Below the pieces are notes generated by a model. That model was not told the origin of the DNA. It saw only the letters and a list, made by a program, of their open reading frames with translations, and did not search any database. Made by a program: the position numbers and the translations under genes. Of a stretch of 64,000 nt of DNA, positions 4,073 to 64,000 are shown piece after piece. Position 1 is the stretch's first letter. Every line of letters begins with the position of its first letter. The DNA lies in the NCBI GenBank assembly GCA_026027325.1, contig JAMSLZ010000002.1, positions 3,596,001 to 3,660,000 on the forward strand, in the 5' to 3' direction. The DNA comes from Actinomucor elegans (lineage: Eukaryota > Mucoromycota > Mucoromycetes > Mucorales > Mucoraceae).

Positions 4073-4720
4073 CTAATTCTTCATGTAGCGTAAAATGGCT
4101 GCTCTGGTTTCTGACTCAGTTTTGGCTCGCTTTGCTATTTCTTTCCCAGGGTCTTTTTGGCTGTCAGATAATATACGTTGACGCTCAATGGCCTTCTTTT
4201 CAATCTCCTTATATTTATGCGTAACCGCTTTTTTGCTTGTCTCTTGATGTCCAATGCAAAGGCGATCTTGCTTCAAAACGGTGGCTATAGGATGCCGACG
4301 GCCTTGCCTGTCTAGACCTAAACCTTCTTCATACTGCCATCCTTGTGACTGAAGCATTTTAAACCCCACATTGTTACCATTCAAAGTGAGAATATCAGGT
4401 GCTGGGTATTTTGTCTCACTGCTGACCATATGAGCCGTACCTTGTATGTGGCGCTTATAATCGGATTTGGGTATTAGCATATCACAACTTTCACACTTCC
4501 AGGTCTCTACTGTGTTAGGCTCCGTCGTCCTGTTCTTGGTTGATGAAACGAGACTGCGGTAAATAGAAGCAATCGCATCGCCATTCGACTTTAATCGTTT
4601 GGTTTCTGGCTCTTTTGTAGACGTGCTTTGCGCAACAAATTCAATAGGTCGCGTATACCGTGTTACTAGAGGTCTATTTTCTGAATCGTTTACTTTGCTT
4701 GGCGATGGTGTATTGGACAT
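4073..4720 (-). CDS. G-patch and C2H2 zinc-finger protein (GPANK1-like)
   Basis: Single-exon ORF of 215 aa. Residues 76-97 form a C2H2-type finger (CESC, 11 residues, H, 5 residues, H: C76, C79, H91, H97). Residues about 118-157 form a G-patch (VGFKMLQSQGW, then EGLG and RRHPIATVLK). G-patch proteins usually activate DEAH-box RNA helicases or act in RNA processing. The order finger then G-patch, and the GWxxxxGLG plus PIxxxLKxDRxxIG pattern, resemble GPANK1 and related fungal proteins, although no ankyrin repeats are present. The C-terminus is a charged helical segment rich in Lys, Glu and Arg. Probable nuclear RNA-related role; the specific helicase partner is unknown. Confidence 0.85.
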   Translation of the reverse strand: MSNTPSPSKVNDSENRPLVTRYTRPIEFVAQSTSTKEPETKRLKSNGDAIASIYRSLVSSTKNRTTEPNTVETWKCESCDMLIPKSDYKRHIQGTAHMVSSETKYPAPDILTLNGNNVGFKMLQSQGWQYEEGLGLDRQGRRHPIATVLKQDRLCIGHQETSKKAVTHKYKEIEKKAIERQRILSDSQKDPGKEIAKRAKTESETRAAILRYMKN

Positions 4721-48575: not shown

Positions 48576-51500
48576 ATGTCTTCTCCTGCTGCCTCCATTC
48601 ACTCTGGTGAACCTACTGTTTCTGTTGCTCAAGCCAACTTACCTAGTCTTGATACATCCATGGAAGAATCTTCTGGTTCTGCTGCTTCTTTTGTTGATCG
48701 ACAAGTACAAGCTGAAGAATCTCTCCGTAGTATGCAAGATACTATCAATCAACTCACTATTGAGTTAACCATTCTTGCTGCTCGTCTCTCGTCTCCTTTG
48801 TCTGGTGATAATCTCGATGATTTCCAGGCTGAATACTTACAAAAGGATAGTGTTCTCAAGGCTGTCATTGCTACCAAAGCCCTCATTGAGAAATCCAATG
48901 CTGACTCTGTCAAATATGCTCGCGCTGTTGTTGATCCCAAGGCACCCATCAAGGTTTCTAGTGTGTGTCCCAACAACATGCCTTATCTTCAATGGGTTGG
49001 TGAAGTTCATGAGCCTAGTGCTCATATTTTATCGATGCTGCTGCTTGTTTGACACGTTTTCAAAACGTAATGTATGCTCATCGTTTGGACTTCGACACCA
49101 ACTATGAACGATTAGTGTTGTCTCAAATGTCGCAAGCTCAACTTACCTGGTATGAAGTTGAGTTCCACCAGAACGCTCGTGCCGCTGGTATTGCTTCTCC
49201 TACGTGGCTCATGTTCAAGAATGAGTTCCTCTCTCGGTTTGGTACAACCGTTGATGAAGATCGTGCTGCCTGTGCTCGCTCTCTTGTTGACATCAAGTTA
49301 GCCAAAGGTGAATCTCTTTTTGCTTTCATTGATCGCTTCAATGATCTCCGTCGTCGTGCTGTTGACCAGTGCTTACCTGCCTCCATTCTTGTGGATAAGT
49401 TTTTACACGCCTTGCCCACTGAATTTGCTGACAAGGTCATTACTTCGCGTCTTTCCTTACCAAAGGATCAAAAGTCGAATGTGGATGTAGTGATGCGTCT
49501 TGCTCGTGAACTGTACAATGACTTGTACAAAGAGAAAGGTCTTCCTGGTGTCTCTGCTTCTGTTTCTTCTGCTTCTGGTTCTTCTTCGCGTGTGTCAAAC
49601 ATACCTTCTGCTGCCAACTATGTGCACCGTGAAAGTGACAAGTCTCGTCACGCTGTTCCTTCTTCTCTTGGTGTTGCCTCTTCTGCCATGTCTATTGGTA
49701 AGGTTGCCAAACGTTCTTCTTCTACTGCTTCCACTGGGAAATATTGTTCTTTTCACAAAGTCAATACCCATGATACTGCCAATTGTAAGGCTATCTCTCG
49801 TGCGTCATCTGTTATTGCTAACCAGCAACCTCTTGCTGCTGCTTCCGGTTCTTTGCCTTCTTCAAGACAAGTTCCTATTAACAATCGTACTTGTCATTCG
49901 TGTGGAGCTCCTGGTTGGACACGCCAGCATCGTTGCAATACTGCTGTGCGTAACGATCCCAATCAAGGACCAACTCATCGTTTTGGGATGATGAGTATTG
50001 CAGGTGCTGCTTCTCGTGCCTTTGGTTCTTCTGGTGCTATTGCATCATCTTCTGCTTCGTTGGCTCCGGCCTCGAACCTATCGACAGTTGCTCCCGCAGT
50101 AACTCCATTCAATTCCGAAGTTAGCTCTTCATCTTCTGCTGTTCCTGTTCAGGAACACATGAATATCGATGAACACGCAGCCGTCCAGGCACAACTTTGT
50201 AAGTCAAACATATTTTCAAATTTACCCAAACAAAGATCTAATGCGATTCTTTTACCTATTGTTGTGCAGAACATTCGCGTCTACGCATACTTGGATACAG
50301 GCTGTACGTTCAGCATATGTTCTCCTCGCTTCTTTCGTTCTCTTGGTGTTGGCTTTACGCCTTCATCTGGTACGGTTCAGCTTGGTCATGTTAACACGCA
50401 ACAACCTAGGATTGGTTATACTTCTTTGAACATTTTGTACAATAAAATACAATTGAAGCATAAATTTGAATTGTTTGATTTCTATACAGAGGACGATAGT
50501 GCGCCTATTTTATTTGGTCTTGACATTATGCCTCTTCTTAACATCGCTATCACTGGGTTGGTATCAACTTGGGATGATCATACTGGTCCTGCATTGCCAT
50601 CACCAATCGATCCTGAAGATATCAAACCTAATAATAGTCCTTTTGGTACTGCTGATGAACGCCAATTGATGCAATCTAAACTTAAACCACTGTTAGCTGC
50701 AAACGCTAATATCGATTTGAAGAATACCTACTGCAATTTGCCTGGCGCAATAGTACAATTGGAAACGCAACCCGGTAAAGTAGCTTACCGTAAGCCATAC
50801 CCAATTCCTATTGCCTACAAGCAATCCGTATTAGATCAAATTGAAACTTGGAAAAATGAAGGTGTAATAGAAATTGCACAAAGTCACACCGGCTTTAATT
50901 CTCCCCTTCTATGTGTTAGTAAGAAAAATGCTGATGGTATCTATTCGTTTAAGAAACCTAGAGTAGTAGCTGATGTTCGTGAGTTAAACTCGATTCTTAT
51001 TAGTACGGATAAGTACAATATACCTCTCATTTCGGACATCCATGAACGCTTAAGTAATGCCAAAATCATTACTAGTATCGATATCCATTCTTGCTTCACT
51101 AGCTTCCTCGTTGACCCTGCTCACAAAAGCAAGTTAAACTTTATGTGTCCTTTTACTAACTTGCAATATACTTTTCGCAAAGTATGTTTCGGTGTGTCCT
51201 TTATTGCTAATTTGGTACAAAGGACCTTAACTAACTTGTTCAGTGACCTTCCTTACGTAACGATCTATATCGATGACATTTGCATCAGTACCAATGATTC
51301 TCTAGCACATCATACTGATTGTGTAGCCGAAGTTATCCGTCGCCTCACAAACGCAAATCTTCAACTTTCTCCAGAAAAGATTGTACTTGCTCAGAAAAGT
51401 ATTCACATTTTGGGTTGGTCAATTGTAGATGGTAAATTGATGCCTGATCCAAGAAAAGTATCAAATGTACACACCTGGCCTCTTCCTCAGACGGGTAAAG

Positions 51501-53812
51501 ACATTATGCGATACTTAGGTTACTTCAATTACTTTCGTTCTGCGATTCCTGGATACAGTCGTTTAGCAGCTCCACTTGATGAGTTACGCAGTAGTAAATC
51601 ACTTGCAGCTATATGGTCTGACAAACACACGCAAGCTTTTCGCAACTTGCAAGCAGCCTTGTCGTCTGCTCTCGTGTTATCTCCTCCTGACTTTCGCTAC
51701 CGTTTCCATGTCGCAACTGACGCGTCTAAAACTGGTATTGGTGGAGTCATTTACTATATCAAAAATGATACGGTTCATTATGTGACTATGGCTTCTCGCA
51801 AGCTATCTACCTCCGAAATGAATTACAGTACAACAAAACGAGAATTACTTGCTATTGTCTACATGTTGACTAAGTATCATAAATGGTTATTCGGTATTAA
51901 ATTCACTTTGCATACTGATCATAAAAGCCTTATCTTTTTACATGATCAAAGCACCCCCAACACCTTGATGCTGACTTGGTGGGACACTATTTTTTCTTTT
52001 ACATTCGATGTTGTTCATATTCCTGGAATTAAGAACATCATTCCCGATACTCTTAGTCGACTGTTTTCTGATGACGAACCCAACAGTCTGGAGGAGGGTG
52101 GAAATATTGTTAACCATCAAAACATATTTGAGAACCATAAGAAAAGATATAATACCACGCGTTCTGAACGTAAACTGCAAATACGGTATCCTACAGATAA
52201 AAACAAGTCACGCAAAAGAATACTATCTGCTAGAAACGGGACTGAAAATAAAACAAAAGGAAATTACGCCTTTTCATCTTTCCCAACAGTTTCTACAAAC
52301 TACGATGATAATACCAATACATCATCCAACCACATTGACTCATCCAATACTACATCGTTCGATAGTTACAATAAGACACCTCTTATTTCTCGCGCAATGC
52401 AATATGCTGATTATATGACACCACCTGAAAAGGATCGCGTTTCTATTATTATGAAAGCACACTTGCTTGGCCATTTTGGCGTAAATGCAATTGAGAAAAC
52501 TATTCACAATGATTACAAATTACATTGGACTAATTTGCGACAAGACATTCAAAGAGTTATCAATGATTGTGAAGCTTGCCAAGCACATGGTATCTATCGA
52601 GTTGGTTATCACCCTCCTAGAAGCGTGTTGCCTGACGGTGTCTTCGATCATATCTGTATAGATCTCGGTGATTTCAATACTACATCATCTCGTGGTAATA
52701 ACTTTATGTTAGTTGTAGTAGATTACTTTAGTCGATTTACAATTCTACGTGCACTCCCTGACAAGAGTAGTTACAGTGTAGCAAAAGAATTACTTCACAT
52801 ATGTTGTCAGTTCGGATTCCCTCGGATCATCACGCATGACAATGGTATGGAATTTGTGAATGAAGTGGTTAAACAATTTATACAAATGAGTGGCATGGAT
52901 AGACGGCTTAGCTTGCCCTATACTCCTACTGGAAACAGTGTAGTAGAAAGCTATGTTGGCATCTGTAAACGTAGTATCATCAAAGCGTTAACTGCTAATG
53001 CTGTTGAACCTGAATCTTGGGATTTGTATTTAGACGTGATCCAATACTCTGTCAATTGTCAGTATTCGCGATTGCATAAATCTCGTCCTTTTGCGGTTAT
53101 GTTCAATAGACAGCCTAATGACTTTATCGACTACACGGATGTAAAACCTACCATCAATATCGAGAAATCTGATAGTAAACTCATTGATAAGAAGCTGAAA
53201 TATGTCAAAGATGTCATTATTCCTTCTATTGCTAAACGCATTAAAGAGACACAATTAAACGATCATTTAAAATTCCAAAAGAATAACAAGATCATTGAAA
53301 CAAAGTACCCTCTTAATTCTAAAGTTATGATTGTGAACGTACTCAAATCATCTAAACTGCAACCCAGATGGTTAGGTCCTTTTATCATTAAAGGCTACAC
53401 CAAGCATGGTAGTTACATTTTAGAAGATCTCACTGGCTCTTTATTATCTCGTGATGTACCTACGCATCAGATAAGACTGATTCAATCAGGAGATCAACGA
53501 TCTGAAAGCGAACTTAACGAGAAACATTATGAGGTACAAGCAATTGTAAACCATCGACTCTTGCCAGACGGTGAATACGAGTATTACGTGCATTGGGTTG
53601 GATACGATGACCAAGAAAAATACAATACTTGGCAGACGGTTGATACCTTCGATTCGAAGAAACCTATTCAAGACTATTGGACACGTCGTCAAGCAACCAT
53701 TGCAAGCACAACAGGTAGATCCCTGCCTAATACTATCAACAAGCGAAGAATACCTGCTCGTAATAAACACAGCAGATCGTTTGTACCTAAAGCATATAAT
53801 ACAAGATCTTGA
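48576..53812 (+). pseudogene. Element C Gag-Pol, single frameshift in gag
   Basis: Two overlapping frames: 48576-49052 (start of Gag) and 49049-53812 (1587 codons). The change of frame is in CATATTTTATCG near 49023-49034. Both sides still read as Gag (EVHEPSAH, then AAACLTRFQNVMYAHRLDF), so a one-base deletion in the T-run is the simplest cause. Then follow a Cys-His motif (CHSCGAPGWTRQHRC), protease with LDTG (about 50290-50300), reverse transcriptase with YIDD (about 51266-51277), RNase H (VATDAS, about 51712) and integrase. Integrase shows an HHCC finger (GHFGVNAIEK..CEAC), catalytic D (ICIDLGD), HDNGMEF and an E in SVVESY. The protein ends with a chromodomain (HYEVQAIVNHR, YYVHWVGYDD). 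Apart from the frameshift it looks functional. Confidence 0.9.
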
Positions 53813-54660: not shown

Positions 54661-57600
54661 TTACTTCCTGCTTCTTTTACTACGTCTAGTCTGTGATATG
54701 GGATGATTTAAATCAGTTACCTCACCAGTTCGCATTCTCTTATTATTCGACACATTATCAGATTTTTGATCAGTAATTGTGTTCTTAGTTGGTGATTTGG
54801 TATGAGCTTTCTTTTGGTAAGTGTCTTTCAACCTTTCCTTTGCTAATCGCTTTGAATGTCTAACCTTTTCCCAATACTTTTCGATAGTGACAGGAGACGA
54901 AAATGCATCAACTGAGATCCAGTCATTTTCTCGTTCACCATAGCCTACCCATTTTACAAGATATAACCTTTGGCCATTTTCATCTTTATGGTCTCGTATC
55001 TCCTCGACTTCAAACAGTTCTTCTTCTATAGCAGATTCGTCAATAGATACGACTTTGAGTTCTGAGGGTACATATTCACGATGTAATAGTTCATTCGACT
55101 CGTCCTTCAATACATAGGTGCCAGCACGTGTCTTTCGAACTACAGTATATGGCCCATCATATAGAGGCGATAACGATGTTGGTCGACCACCTTGTAATTT
55201 GACCATTACAGGAGTGTCTATTGGGATATCAATAATGCGATGCTTCTTGTTGAAATCCTCATTGTACTTTTCGACGATCTTACGTGTTCTCTCTTCAACA
55301 GCAGGAAATACAACGTCAGCCATGTAATCAGCTCTCTTTACCAGTTCTTTTACTGATACAGGATTCTTTTTGCCCTTCATTTTAGGATCATGATTTGTGC
55401 TCAAGTCTACTTGTCTAGCAAACATTAACGAAAATGGTGTACTAGCAGTGCGATCTCTTACTTTGATATTGCAGCATAATTGTACAAGTCCTAGCCTTTC
55501 GTCCCAGTTACTTGTATCATTACCACAAAGTTTCCGCAGTGTGTTTTTCACCATCTGCACGGATCTCTCAGCAGCACCATTGGATTGAGGATAATAAGGT
55601 GTAGAGAATCGGTGCTGGATGCCCAAGGTATTGGTTAATGTATGCATCAATCCGTTCCTGAATTCCCTTCCGTTATCGCTACCAATGATGTCAGGTAATC
55701 CATAGTCAGCAAAGATATTAATCAAGGCTTTAGCTACGGTATCACTTTGTTTGTTGGGTATAGGTCTAGTGATAATATATTTGGTGCAAATATCGACAAG
55801 TACTAGCCCATATATGTTACCAGCCTCAGTTACAGGAAGTGGTCCAAAGAGATCCATTGTTACATGACTGAATGGTTCGAATGCAACTATAGATTTTTGT
55901 GGATTGAAACCCTTCTTGGATACATTGTGAAGTGCACATTCTTTGCAGCGTGAAAGGATATCTTTACAGTCAGCGTAGATGGTATTCCAATGTAACCCCT
56001 GGTAAGTGTGGATGTGCTTTACTACACTCTCAATACCGAAATGTCCAAGTGCATGTGCATCGTGGATTATTTGATCTCTCTCGTGGGCTGGAGGACAAGC
56101 ATACTCTGTTCCTTTAGATTTGAAGTCTTTACTATTAAGCTTCACCGCGAGGATGTTCAAACGTTTATCTTTCGAGTAGATCTTCTTTTTATGAATAAAT
56201 CTATCTTTGTCATTGTTAGATGAAGCTCTTCTTAGTAAGATGCATTTCTCTAATCGTTTAATATTGCGATCCTGCTCCCCCTCCAGCGTTTGGTCTTCAA
56301 TAATAGGAGGGTAAACGCGAGATAGTGCATCAGGTAGTTTATTGGCAATGCCTTTTAAGTGAACTACATTCAGATTGAATTGTCCAATAACATCCATATA
56401 AGATTGTAATGTACTGTTCAACGTGGTAGACGTGAACATGTAAGTAAGAGCCATATGATCAGTGAGCACCTCGACAGGTAATGGATGCCCCCATAGCAAA
56501 GGTCTAAATCTGATCAATCCGAATACAATTGCAGCAGTTTCGCGTCTATTGGTGGACCAATTGCGCTCAGCCGAATTGAGAGACTTGCTAATGAAAGCAA
56601 TGTGTACAGTTCTATTAAATTCATCTCTTTGAGTGAGTGCACAAGCTATCCCATATACAGATGCGTCTGTCTCCAGATAAAATTTCTTGGATAGATCAGG
56701 CTGGTGAAGCACGGCATTAGACACAAGAATCTGTTTAATCCGATTGAATCGATCAGTATGTAAAGACGTCCATTTGGTTTGTACATCCTTATCATTACGT
56801 AGTTGATCTAAAGGTGCAGCTACTTTACTAAGCATAGGACAGTAATCCCTTAAATGAGAAATCACACCCATAATACTTCGTACTTGTGCAGCGTTTTTAG
56901 GAATTGGCCATTTATCAATGTTTGAAAGTCGTCTGTGATCGATCTTTGTAATGCCAGGTCCAACAATAAAGCCCAATAAATATAATGCCGTTCGAAACCA
57001 TGTGCATTTGTCGGGATTGATCTTCAAATTTACAGAAGTCAATCTTTCGAGCACTGTGTTTATCAATTTAATATGTTCTTCTATCGTTTCACTATAGAGT
57101 ACACAATCATCTACATATGTTTCTACTCCTTCTAAGTCTCCCAAGAGGATGTTCATGACCCTGCAGTATTGGCTTGTAAGAAAGCTTAATCCGAAGGGCG
57201 CGTGGCACCATTTGTAGTTTATATGATTATAAGAGAATGATAATACTTCTCTACTAGCCTCATCAACAGCGAAAGAGTAATAAGCCTGTTTGAGATCAAT
57301 TTTAGACATGATTTTTGCCTTTTTTGAGACTCTATCGAAGATCTCAGTAATTTTTGGTACAGCAAAATTTTCTTGTAAGTCTTCTGAAATAGATGCGTTG
57401 ATTTTTCTCAAATCACAACAAATGCGTAGCTTTGTGAGTTTGTCATTTTCATCCTTTTTAGGTACAGCTAATAATGGTTGTTGTAAACGCTCATAATTAT
57501 ATTAATAAGAGAATACTGTACAGATAGAAAATCGTATAGATATCCTTATATATAGCTGCAGAAGTGTATAAAGCATTATTACCAAGAACCAGAATGTAAA

Positions 57601-61483: not shown

Positions 61484-62188
61484 TGTTATATCCGGTGCTA
61501 AAGACGAAGGATATAATTTAAAATACAATAATAAAAGAATAGACAGTAAATGGAATCAGCTATCCTGATAGTAAAAGTTATTCTAATGTTTTATTCACAA
61601 TTCAAAATCAAGTCTTCTTTATATACATTTCATCAGAGCTTAATAGTGTAGCATTCAATATCTATCAGCACGCATGGCCTTACAACGGAGTCCAATCCCA
61701 GCAGCCACTAATAAGCCTTTCAACCACGCATTGTTGTAATTGTATAACCCACGCGTTATTCGATATTCAGGTCTTATCTTGAGATACACTCGATACTACT
61801 CGATAGTATGATGCCGCGTGTTTCTTGTAAGGATTATTGGCTAATAGTTCTAAGGATGACACATCGCTTGTATTTATGCAGGCCTCGTTAATCTGATTGG
61901 GTTATCAGATAGAGTCCGTGTATGACATAAATGAACAGTTGATTCCTTACTATTATGTCGATGCAAAATAGTAGGTGGAATACAACATTGCCCCCTTCCA
62001 GATGAGGTCATCACCTTAGAAGTATCTTTGTATTAAAGATGTAATAATCATAAGAACGAAAGGATAGGATGTAAGCATTGTGTTAGATGTTAAGATCGTG
62101 TGTAATGTAAACTGTCATAAAAAACCTTGTAAAAAACCATTATAGGAAAAAAGTAACATAAGGGAAAAGACAATTACACTTGCAGAGT
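61484..62188 (-). mobile_element. Element C second copy (C'): 3' LTR and adjacent internal sequence
   Basis: 61484-61987 is a family C LTR in minus orientation and 61988-62188 matches the 3' untranslated part of element C (53823-54024 inverted). Homology stops at GCAGAGTG (62189), where the inverted-repeat sequence begins. The rest of this copy would be expected beyond the DNA-transposon-like insertion, outside the window. Confidence 0.9.
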
Positions 62189-62470
62189 GGAGGTCATACA
62201 GATACTCGCAATTGTTGTACAATTACTCGTACAGGTTCTGGGTTAGTGGATGACCTTAGGTACTTACTCATGGGCATATTTTTGGCTGCTGTGATGTTCT
62301 CTGGATATGTGTACCCATTTAAATGGCTATTTCCAATTTTTAAAACGGCTAGAAATATTTGGAATGCCGGAGACATATTGTATAACCACATTCTATTGCA
62401 CCCGGTCATCCACTAACCCAGAACCTGTACGAGTAATTGTACAACAATTGCGAGTATCTGTATGACCTCC
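62189..62470. mobile_element. 67-bp perfect inverted repeat around a 148-bp spacer (transposon end or MITE)
   Basis: Arm 62189-62255 (GGAGGTCATACAGATACTCG .. GTGGATGACC) and arm 62404-62470 are exact reverse complements by eye. The outer edge coincides with the break in element C', so it marks an insertion boundary. Element C' does not resume after the inner arm. It is therefore either the elaborate left terminus of the transposon that encodes the next ORF, or a MITE of that family abutting it. The structure can fold into a long hairpin. No flanking duplication can be proven because the far end is outside the window. Confidence 0.8.
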
Positions 62471-62692
62471 TAGTGGGATATCTCACCACACACTGGTAGA
62501 CATACGTTCCATAGCAAGGTAGTAGAGAGGGGGGGGGGGCCAAAAGGGATGATCTTGTCCAGAGACCTGAATAGTTTCAGCCCCCCTGGGAATGGAAACT
62601 AAGGAGCCTAAGGCTACACTGTAGGACTGGGAGTGAACAACAGCATTTGGTAGCATACAACTCCTATTATACTACAGCATTCTTAAATAAAC
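62471..62692 (+). other. 5' leader of the chromodomain transposase ORF
   Basis: Non-coding and more GC-rich than the host spacers, with G-runs near 62528-62540 and C-runs near 62580. An in-frame TAA at 62684-62686 precedes the ATG. No homology to elements A-D was noticed. Confidence 0.5.
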
Positions 62693-64000
62693 ATGTTTCC
62701 GAAAGAAATAGTAGATGCGTTTACGTTGCTTATGGCGACTTACTGGCAGTTTCTTTCTAAAGATTGGCCAGTGTTGGAAAAGACTAAGTATCACCGGTCT
62801 GAGGTTAAGCCTGTAAAAGATATCCAGCATGTAAAAACTTATGTGTTGGAGCATCTTGGCTACATACCTGTTTTTTTCTTTCTCGTAGAGCTGTTTGCAA
62901 ACCAAGAATATCCTGGTCCATATTCCAACGTGGACAAAGGATTGTTGATAATCTACCAGCTTCTTACCGGTTGTTCTATTGCGCATATGGCACGTTTCAT
63001 CCCTTCTAGTAGCTACCATGCTATTTACAATGCCTTTTATACAAAATACGGAGAGGAGCTGAATACCTGTTTGGACTATTGCCTACGAAAGATGTTCTCC
63101 TCAACAAAGCTGCGAATTATGTGTGCTCTTCACCGAAACCCTGAAGATTTTAAGCATGTTACCTTGATGATAGATGGACATGATTCTAGAGCAACATATA
63201 TCAACGCTGCAGATCATGCCATGTTCTATTCGTATAAGCTTAAGAAGTCTGGCTTCCGAACACAAGTATGTACAGATGTTAATGGGATGGTGTTGTTTGT
63301 CTCCGATGCGGCACCATGTTCAGATAACAACGATGGGTCTATGCTTGCTGATATGCGGTTGAAGAAGAAGATTAGTAAGTACGATTGTGTTGTCGTTGAT
63401 GGTGGATACACTACTTTTATAGATCGTATTGTAGCAAATAATCGTCACCTGGATCGCCATAATTTTGTATTCCCTATCCGTAAGTCTCGAGGAGTGGGTC
63501 TGAAACAAGAAGAAGTTAATTACAACTCCATTCTTGGAAGCTTTCGTTCCTCGATAGAAGCAACGTTTGGAGAGATTGGAACCTTATTTCAACGATTCAA
63601 CGGTAAAGGCGTTATTCGAGTTACCGAGATGGAGACATTCACGGTACAGTTCAAGCTTGCATGTCTTCTTGCAAACATCAAGAAGTTTGTTAACATTGGG
63701 TGTGTTTCTAGCTCTGAACAACATACTTTTTGGATGCAGCCTAACTTCGACTTTCCAAATGGCAGCAGTAAGAATGTCTATGACGTAGTAAGTACCCTTA
63801 CAATTGCAGAAAAGTCCCAAGATGCTGAGATGGTAAAAGAAATACAGCAGCAGTTTCTCTCTTTGGGGGTGAACGAAGATAATGGCTCTGATGACGAACC
63901 CATCGACGAGGACTTACCACAAGGACACTACGAGGTTGAGGCCATTGTTGGGCATCGTGGACCAAAGCATCGTAGAGAGTATTTGGTTAGGTGGGTAGGC
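62693..64000 (+). CDS. DDE_Tnp_4 (Harbinger/IS5-like) transposase with C-terminal chromodomain, 3' truncated
   Basis: Uninterrupted ORF of 436 codons from ATG 62693 to the window edge. Residues about 85-125 (NVDKGLLIIYQLLTGCSIAH, MARFIPSSSYHAIYNAF) look like the helix-turn-helix found before DDE_Tnp_4 domains. Catalytic-core candidates are D161 (VTLMIDGHDSR), D236 (CVVVDGGYTTF) and E289 (SSIEATFGEIGTLFQRFNG). The spacing and the E-x-x-FG context match Harbinger/PIF-IS5 type DDE enzymes, which cut and paste DNA. From about residue 412, HYEVEAIVGHR, then REYLVRWVG, is the start of a chromodomain, strikingly like those at the ends of the element A and C integrases. Chromodomains bind methylated histone tails and would target insertion to heterochromatin. 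It lies just inside the 67-bp inverted repeat that breaks C'. Subfamily is uncertain; the C-terminus is not visible. Confidence 0.78.
   Translation, partial: MFPKEIVDAFTLLMATYWQFLSKDWPVLEKTKYHRSEVKPVKDIQHVKTYVLEHLGYIPVFFFLVELFANQEYPGPYSNVDKGLLIIYQLLTGCSIAHMARFIPSSSYHAIYNAFYTKYGEELNTCLDYCLRKMFSSTKLRIMCALHRNPEDFKHVTLMIDGHDSRATYINAADHAMFYSYKLKKSGFRTQVCTDVNGMVLFVSDAAPCSDNNDGSMLADMRLKKKISKYDCVVVDGGYTTFIDRIVANNRHLDRHNFVFPIRKSRGVGLKQEEVNYNSILGSFRSSIEATFGEIGTLFQRFNGKGVIRVTEMETFTVQFKLACLLANIKKFVNIGCVSSSEQHTFWMQPNFDFPNGSSKNVYDVVSTLTIAEKSQDAEMVKEIQQQFLSLGVNEDNGSDDEPIDEDLPQGHYEVEAIVGHRGPKHRREYLVRWVG

Follow-up and report, generated by a model that had tools for sequence, protein, structure and literature searches.

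A chromodomain-bearing DDE_Tnp_4 transposon with LTR-like terminal modules in the fungus Actinomucor elegans

The window, as we call the whole 64,000-nucleotide stretch that was analysed (C12:3596001-3660000 of the 36.5-Mb A. elegans genome), contains a DNA transposon in which a DDE_Tnp_4 transposase is fused to a C-terminal chromodomain and the ends are formed by LTR-like modules. Such a combination is very unusual among DNA transposons. We consider it reasonably probable that this is a recently active, probably autonomous fungal chromodomain transposon of the Harbinger/IS5-like DDE_Tnp_4 type, moving by the steps proposed below.

Structure of the window element and its families

The window copy (L036) is 4,162 bp long, has the 3-bp duplication AGT on both sides and carries a second gene, ORF2, as do the long copies of its family. 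Its anatomy is close to certain and is given here for the part inside the window.

62186..62188, no strand: left target-site duplication AGT; the right AGT follows the element, beyond the window
62189..62470, + strand: left terminal module of 282 bp, LTDR-like; found solo elsewhere too
62189..62254, + strand: outer 66-bp module arm, GGAGGTCATACAG...; perfect inverted match to the inner arm (66 of 66 bases)
62263..62263, no strand: private substitution at module position 75, present in both end modules of the window copy
62405..62470, - strand: inner 66-bp module arm, ...CTGTATGACCTCC; pairs with the outer arm
62471..62613, + strand: subterminal inverted repeat of the core, about 142 bp, starting TAGTGGGATATC; L036 490-914 pairs with 4228-4652
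62693..64000, + strand: ORF1, chromodomain DDE transposase of 469 aa; runs on to window-equivalent 64102
63173..63559, + strand: catalytic triad D161 (63173-63175), D236 (63398-63400) and E289 (63557-63559), from the alignment of relatives
63929..64000, + strand: first 24 residues of the chromodomain (the full domain is protein residues 413-461)

The right end, beyond the window, is the same 282-bp module with its spacer inverted. Two Gypsy frames also lie in the window, at 49019-53809 (+) and 54664-57501 (-); each has reverse transcriptase, RNase H and integrase, and their chromodomains are clearly different.

The first-pass annotation, made from the letters of the window, had proposed a DDE transposase fused to a chromodomain, and this was borne out by the whole 469-aa protein in the genome, where 13 full-length copies exist. 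When the sequence was extended past 64000, the frame was complete (469 aa) with an entire chromodomain, and the right end module and AGT were found there. In profile searches ORF1 matched DDE_Tnp_4 with an E value of 1e-11 and Chromo (PF00385) with 39.5 bits against a curated cut-off of 25.1, and the triad named in the annotation was conserved without exception across the 67 relatives aligned. The chromodomain is folded and has its cage aromatics. The positions that we take to form the cage, located in ORF1 through an HP1 alignment, are residues 413 (Y in 53 and F in 10 of the 67 relatives), 434 (W in 63) and 437 (Y in 52, F in 9), and all three agree with those of HP1. The domain is likely to be a reader of methylated H3 tails. 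A DDE transposase is the sole catalytic domain recognised across the two ORFs. A PDB sequence search with the window part of ORF1 gave no match, nor did a MULE search of the genome.

A genome search with ORF1, in which 96 of 299 candidate places were scored, returned 13 places that match over the full query length with about 100% identity and have a 471-aa open frame (the 471 family), and many other scored places belong to families at 33-46% identity to ORF1. Across 18,330 bp of ORF1 from the 471 family, 10 bases differ, and these fall at 8 sites; such near-identical copies point to recent activity of the window element. Nine further families of the genome carry the fusion, which occurs in many intact families of multiple copies. 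Four were read through to the chromodomain, namely 504 (L022), 486 (L044), 493 (L045) and 486b (L047), and five were recognised by coordinates, with DDE_Tnp_4 and Chromo in one open frame (families 481, 495, 505, 566 and a second 504-aa family), from a Chromo search in which 150 of 364 candidates were scored. A 164-aa piece in L007 may represent one more such family. No chromodomain was found in a 428-aa frame (L046) or in a classic Harbinger-like copy (L048).

Several copies are rearranged. At L032:3936-6439 a 493-family element lies within ORF2 of a 471-family element, so that one chromodomain transposon is nested in another. L037/L038 (C21:2358211-2366250) consists of two 471-family cores in opposite orientation with the middle module common to both; its outer flanks, TAA and ACT, are mismatched, as after recombination of two elements. 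L060 (C4:61290-62860), flanked by the duplication ATA, is a 471-family element reduced to 1,475 bp by internal deletion and a candidate non-autonomous form.

The second gene resisted assignment by sequence. ORF2 had no Pfam match at E 10 and no match in a PDB sequence search, and no Myb family appeared in the best 25 of 40 families for its 70 aligned relatives. In a fold search the folds listed were other than that of the His-Me finger nuclease, and the fold of the predicted ORF2 core is similar to those of TATA-binding and rolling-circle initiator proteins. In BFVD one match fell under E 0.001, unnamed and covering 89 columns; the fifth-ranked was an inovirus 'REP' (E 2.5e-3). Assignment to the Rep_trans proteins was considered from motifs seen by eye (LDxxxD, YNK, TRxE) and was not adopted: the fold match to Rep_trans was not better than that to TATA-binding proteins, and profile comparison gave no support, with a probability of 0.4% in hhalign against six RepC-type proteins. 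One of the 70 relatives matched PHROG 702 'replication protein' (1.6e-6), which was not recovered in 10 members rescanned. As a separate observation, the annotated protein P0209 (Rhizomucor pusillus, 970 aa) holds an ORF2-type region and a DDE_Tnp_4 domain together.

Age of the fusion and relation to known elements

A survey for the same fusion, as the first-pass annotation had suggested, found it in Lichtheimia, Apophysomyces, Cunninghamella, Mucor, Mortierella kin and metagenomes. Of 221 homologs of ORF1, 120 were listed, and at least 76 have a chromodomain by a custom profile. Among the matches listed, both domains occur in Lichtheimia, Apophysomyces, Cunninghamella, Lobosporangium, Mortierella, Entomortierella and Dissophora, most homologs are metagenomic, and four Rhizomucor proteins are without a chromodomain. 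With the 493-family protein, from a divergent branch, as query, 64 of 70 homologs had Chromo by their listed Pfam domains, one of them from Mucor flavus. P0031 and P0032 (Cunninghamella blakesleeana) are chromodomain transposases of 641-648 aa with long N-terminal extensions, and P0032 has PF00077 listed, which we take to be the retroviral-type aspartyl protease family.

A transposase tree was built by a quick method without the chromodomain columns; it has 117 rows, nine of the 120 proteins being left out (short, or P0047) and six from the A. elegans genome added, and several of its branches are long. The chromodomain is present in 76 rows, in all parts of the tree, and absent in 41, with 12 changes of state against a mean of 33.8 when states were shuffled. 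Truncated predictions may account for some of the rows lacking it. A supported clade, 25 rows in size, has no chromodomain, which indicates that the lineage can do without it. Judged from the homologs and from this distribution, the fusion of DDE_Tnp_4 and chromodomain is old.

The annotation had also raised capture from the neighbouring retroelements, and a recent event of that kind did not hold up. Chromoviruses and these transposons do have C-terminal chromodomains and genomic neighbourhoods in common. Against recent capture from adjoining chromoviruses, which we regard as extremely improbable, the chromodomain is spread across the transposase tree, and the nearest chromodomains are those of the nearest transposases: in a chromodomain tree built on 53 columns and 76 rows, with five Gypsy sequences and one HP1 and with pieces shorter than 48 residues left out, the chromodomain of the window ORF1 falls closest to those of P0003 and P0008, which also neighbour it in the transposase tree. 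The grouping of all transposase chromodomains in one clade was not rejected (p-AU 0.388). With 53 columns, the deeper source may be Gypsy or HP1-like.

The closest structural parallel is KolobokP. In the accessible text of Kojima and Bao (2022, PMC9587614) it has the arrangement LTDR-INT-LTDR with a DDE transposase and a second protein; its authors set it apart from all other DNA transposons, raise the idea of an IS26-like circular unit and leave the mechanism undecided. The present elements share with it the LTDR-INT-LTDR plan, LTDRs that have short inverted ends of their own, solo LTDRs flanked by target duplications, and a second protein. KolobokP differs in that it is reported from animals, with a Kolobok transposase, a His-Me nuclease and LTDRs of about 450 or 660 bp. 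The elements described here are fungal, have DDE_Tnp_4 with a chromodomain, a second protein that matched no family and repeats of 221 to about 361 bp, and one family has 66-bp palindromic arms with both spacer orientations. The Kolobok C/DxxH motif is absent, by eye, from the consensus between D236 and E289. The present lineage is a case separate from KolobokP, and in the open-access literature searched no other DNA transposon with LTDRs was found.

The second gene of PIF/Harbinger elements encodes a Myb/SANT-like protein. With PIF/Harbinger and IS5-like elements the present ones have in common a DDE_Tnp_4 domain with an intact triad and a 3-bp duplication; they differ in a second protein without a Myb match, in the chromodomain and in the terminal direct repeats. 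Their duplications vary in sequence and follow no strict TNA or ANT, the target rule given for PIF/Harbinger in the accessible part of PMC12477816. In the transposase tree the window ORF1 is very distant from the classic Harbinger-like copy L048 of the same genome. Because it departs from canonical PIF/Harbinger in target sequence and second gene, we treat the group as a distinct, Harbinger-related lineage.

Chromoviruses resemble these elements in that their strand-transfer enzyme ends in a chromodomain, in their terminal repeats and in their residence in the same genomic islands, but the transposase family is another one here, the duplication is 3 bp and each repeat has inverted ends. In the accessible parts of two papers, the chromodomain carriers named are Maverick and chromoviruses (PMC10799480), and chromodomains are given on Gypsy only (PMC12477816). 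No chromodomain on a cut-and-paste transposase was found in the open-access literature searched; the fungal survey of Muszewska 2017 or Repbase may list the fusion.

Terminal modules and the identity of the two ends

Each end of a 471-family element is a 282-bp module in which perfect 66-bp inverted arms flank a spacer. The spacers have the same orientation in five of ten two-ended copies (L031, L032, L034, L039, L040) and are opposed in the other five (L033, L035, L036, L042, L060); for L041 and L043 one end each was read. The inner boundary TAG...CTA is constant in the copies read, which indicates that the composite is inherited as a unit. A 3-bp duplication was present in 8 of 13 copies (AAT, TGA, ATT, TAC, AAT, AGT, ACC, TAT), and three of the remaining five are dimer members or one-ended. 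A genome search with the module scored 40 of 65 candidate places. Eight module stretches were fetched, of which four are solo modules with perfect duplications (TTA, TTA, TTT, AAG); the others are two solos without duplication, one end fragment and the 1,475-bp deleted element.

Other families have direct repeats. The 504 family has 232-bp terminal repeats without long arms, identical at all 40 scored places (111 candidates); of the 12 pairs that could be formed, every one has both repeats on one strand; its duplication was found in 6 of 9 copies (CTT, TAT, TAT, TTG, CAT, TAA), two others (L027, L028) being mismatched and one lacking the right end. In the 493 family the direct repeats are 221 bp long, their inverted ends are imperfect, and an exact 3-bp duplication occurs in 19 of 26 copies, representing 18 independent sites, as C5:25023 and C9:582552 have the same flanks. 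Six copies were not scorable, and the 26th, inside L032, has a 4-bp overlap, TATT. The 493 duplications (ATT, TAT, AAT, TTT, AAA, ACT, TCT, CTT, AGT, TTA, GAA, ATG, ATA) are 89% A or T, and 14 of the 19 end in T. In one copy of the 486 family the ends are direct repeats, 99.7% alike and about 361 bp long, and these may extend beyond the stretch fetched.

The two ends of a 471-family copy are strikingly alike. The 35 module readings represent 32 distinct places, since L037 and L038 have their three modules in common, and 28 of the 32 are identical. Variants are shared between ends: both ends of L035 have A to G at 183, and both ends of the window copy have T to C at 75, a variant matched exactly only at its own two ends among the 40 scored places. 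No unshared variant occurs among the 32 modules; given the diversity of ORF1, a few single-end variants would be expected had the ends evolved separately. The ends may be kept alike either by fast conversion or by a step that copies from a single template. In the 493 family the sole variant, in one of 46 repeats, is at one end only (C4:16088), so a change can stay unshared and the ends can differ.

In the mechanism we favour, the DDE domain would cut at the outer ends of the modules and insert them into target DNA at positions staggered by 3 bp. The LTR-like repeats would be kept, and of this step we are less sure, through a composite, cointegrate-like route: recombination between the two modules would leave a solo module and release a circle of the core plus one module, and re-insertion of the circle, or conversion, would restore two identical ends. 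As a bold reading, a cointegrate-type route would account jointly for the direct repeats and the identity of the ends as well as for the outer duplications and the solo modules. Against it, no circle was seen, and the route does not by itself give the opposed spacers in half of the two-ended 471 copies, for which recombination between arms must be added.

Bacterial composite units of the IS26/IS6 type have a mobile module at both ends. The likeness extends to loss that leaves one module and to a possible one-module circle (in part after the accessible text of PMC9587614); the difference is that here the transposase is in the core and not in the modules. Carried furthest, the comparison would make the element a eukaryotic IS26-like cointegrate transposon, in which the module of about 282 bp would itself be what moves: replicative transfer of the module from a circle that holds the core and one module would create a matching pair of repeats and a 3-bp duplication, with the chromodomain guiding the event to silent chromatin and ORF2 binding the module or serving its replication; we think this unlikely.

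A simpler account, to which we give slightly less than even weight, is ordinary cut-and-paste transposition, with the long end repeats equalised by gene conversion and flipped through the 66-bp arms, the solo modules being recombination leftovers or MITEs and the chromodomain acting as in chromoviruses. Conversion explains a private substitution at both ends as well, and the flipped spacers of the 471 family, set against the constant strand of the 504 pairs that lack long arms, fit arm recombination. This account leaves unexplained the direct terminal repeats with short inverted ends in three other families, and the conversion would have to be fast, since no module of the 471 family has an unshared variant.

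LTR-like direct repeats, identical ends and shared private substitutions would also suit a retroelement product, that is, a non-autonomous LTR element with a transposase, moved by reverse transcriptase in trans. We judge this very improbable, because the modules have inverted ends of their own, do not end in TG..CA, occur in both spacer orientations and exist as solos with 3-bp duplications. No reverse transcriptase, RNase H or protease was recognised in the two long ORFs, which gave no catalytic domain besides the DDE transposase, whereas the neighbouring Gypsy frames match reverse transcriptase and RNase H.

Location in retroelement islands and possible chromatin targeting

Further steps of the favoured mechanism concern the chromodomain, which would bind methylated H3 tails and keep the transposase on silent chromatin, and such retention would favour insertion into TE islands. 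The distance from detected integrase domains (150 of 224 candidates) was compared for 94 of the 96 scored places, two broken-copy pieces being left out. Sixty-nine of the 94 lie within 25 kb of such a domain, against 15% of random positions drawn on 11 contigs (22.6 Mb). For 10 of 13 471-family and 9 of 9 504-family copies, the 400 bp to the left of the element had a match in other fetched stretches with an E value no higher than 1e-10, and single copies were read by eye within a LINE-like endonuclease frame and beside Gypsy frames. The pattern is compatible with chromodomain targeting.

Heterochromatin targeting was not accepted from clustering alone. Tc1-type frames served as controls (59 of 220-449 aa matching from position 3 or before, and 9 of at least 550 aa), and the 59, taken to lack a chromodomain, cluster equally, with 43 within 25 kb of an integrase (Fisher p 1.0). 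Purging from genes, or another cause, may therefore explain the island location. A role other than targeting, for example nuclear retention of the transposase or evasion of silencing, with insertions outside TE islands being lost, is accordingly a rival that we find credible, although rather doubtful on balance. It is opposed by a recent Tc1-type family that persists outside islands, 7 of its 9 copies lying over 50 kb away, which argues that outside insertions are not always lost. Only 2 of these 9 lie within 50 kb, against 19 of 21 471-family places (pieces included), with a p of 5e-4 that flatters the difference, as the nine-copy control was chosen after its positions were seen. The large conservation of the cage aromatics also stands against a non-targeting role. 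The recent Tc1-type family was read in four of its nine copies, L049-L052 (C2:147586, C4:379139, C21:1528145, C24:671797), which are about 1.9 kb long and 99.5-100% alike, with terminal inverted repeats of about 200 bp; the family lies mostly outside retroelement islands.

Chromodomain targeting is well known for the integrases of retrotransposons. Here a lineage of DNA transposons keeps a chromodomain over great divergence, and the value of chromatin targeting thereby becomes testable outside retroelements. With a second LTDR lineage at hand, in which copies are near-identical and their ends share private marks, the upkeep of identical ends becomes testable as well.
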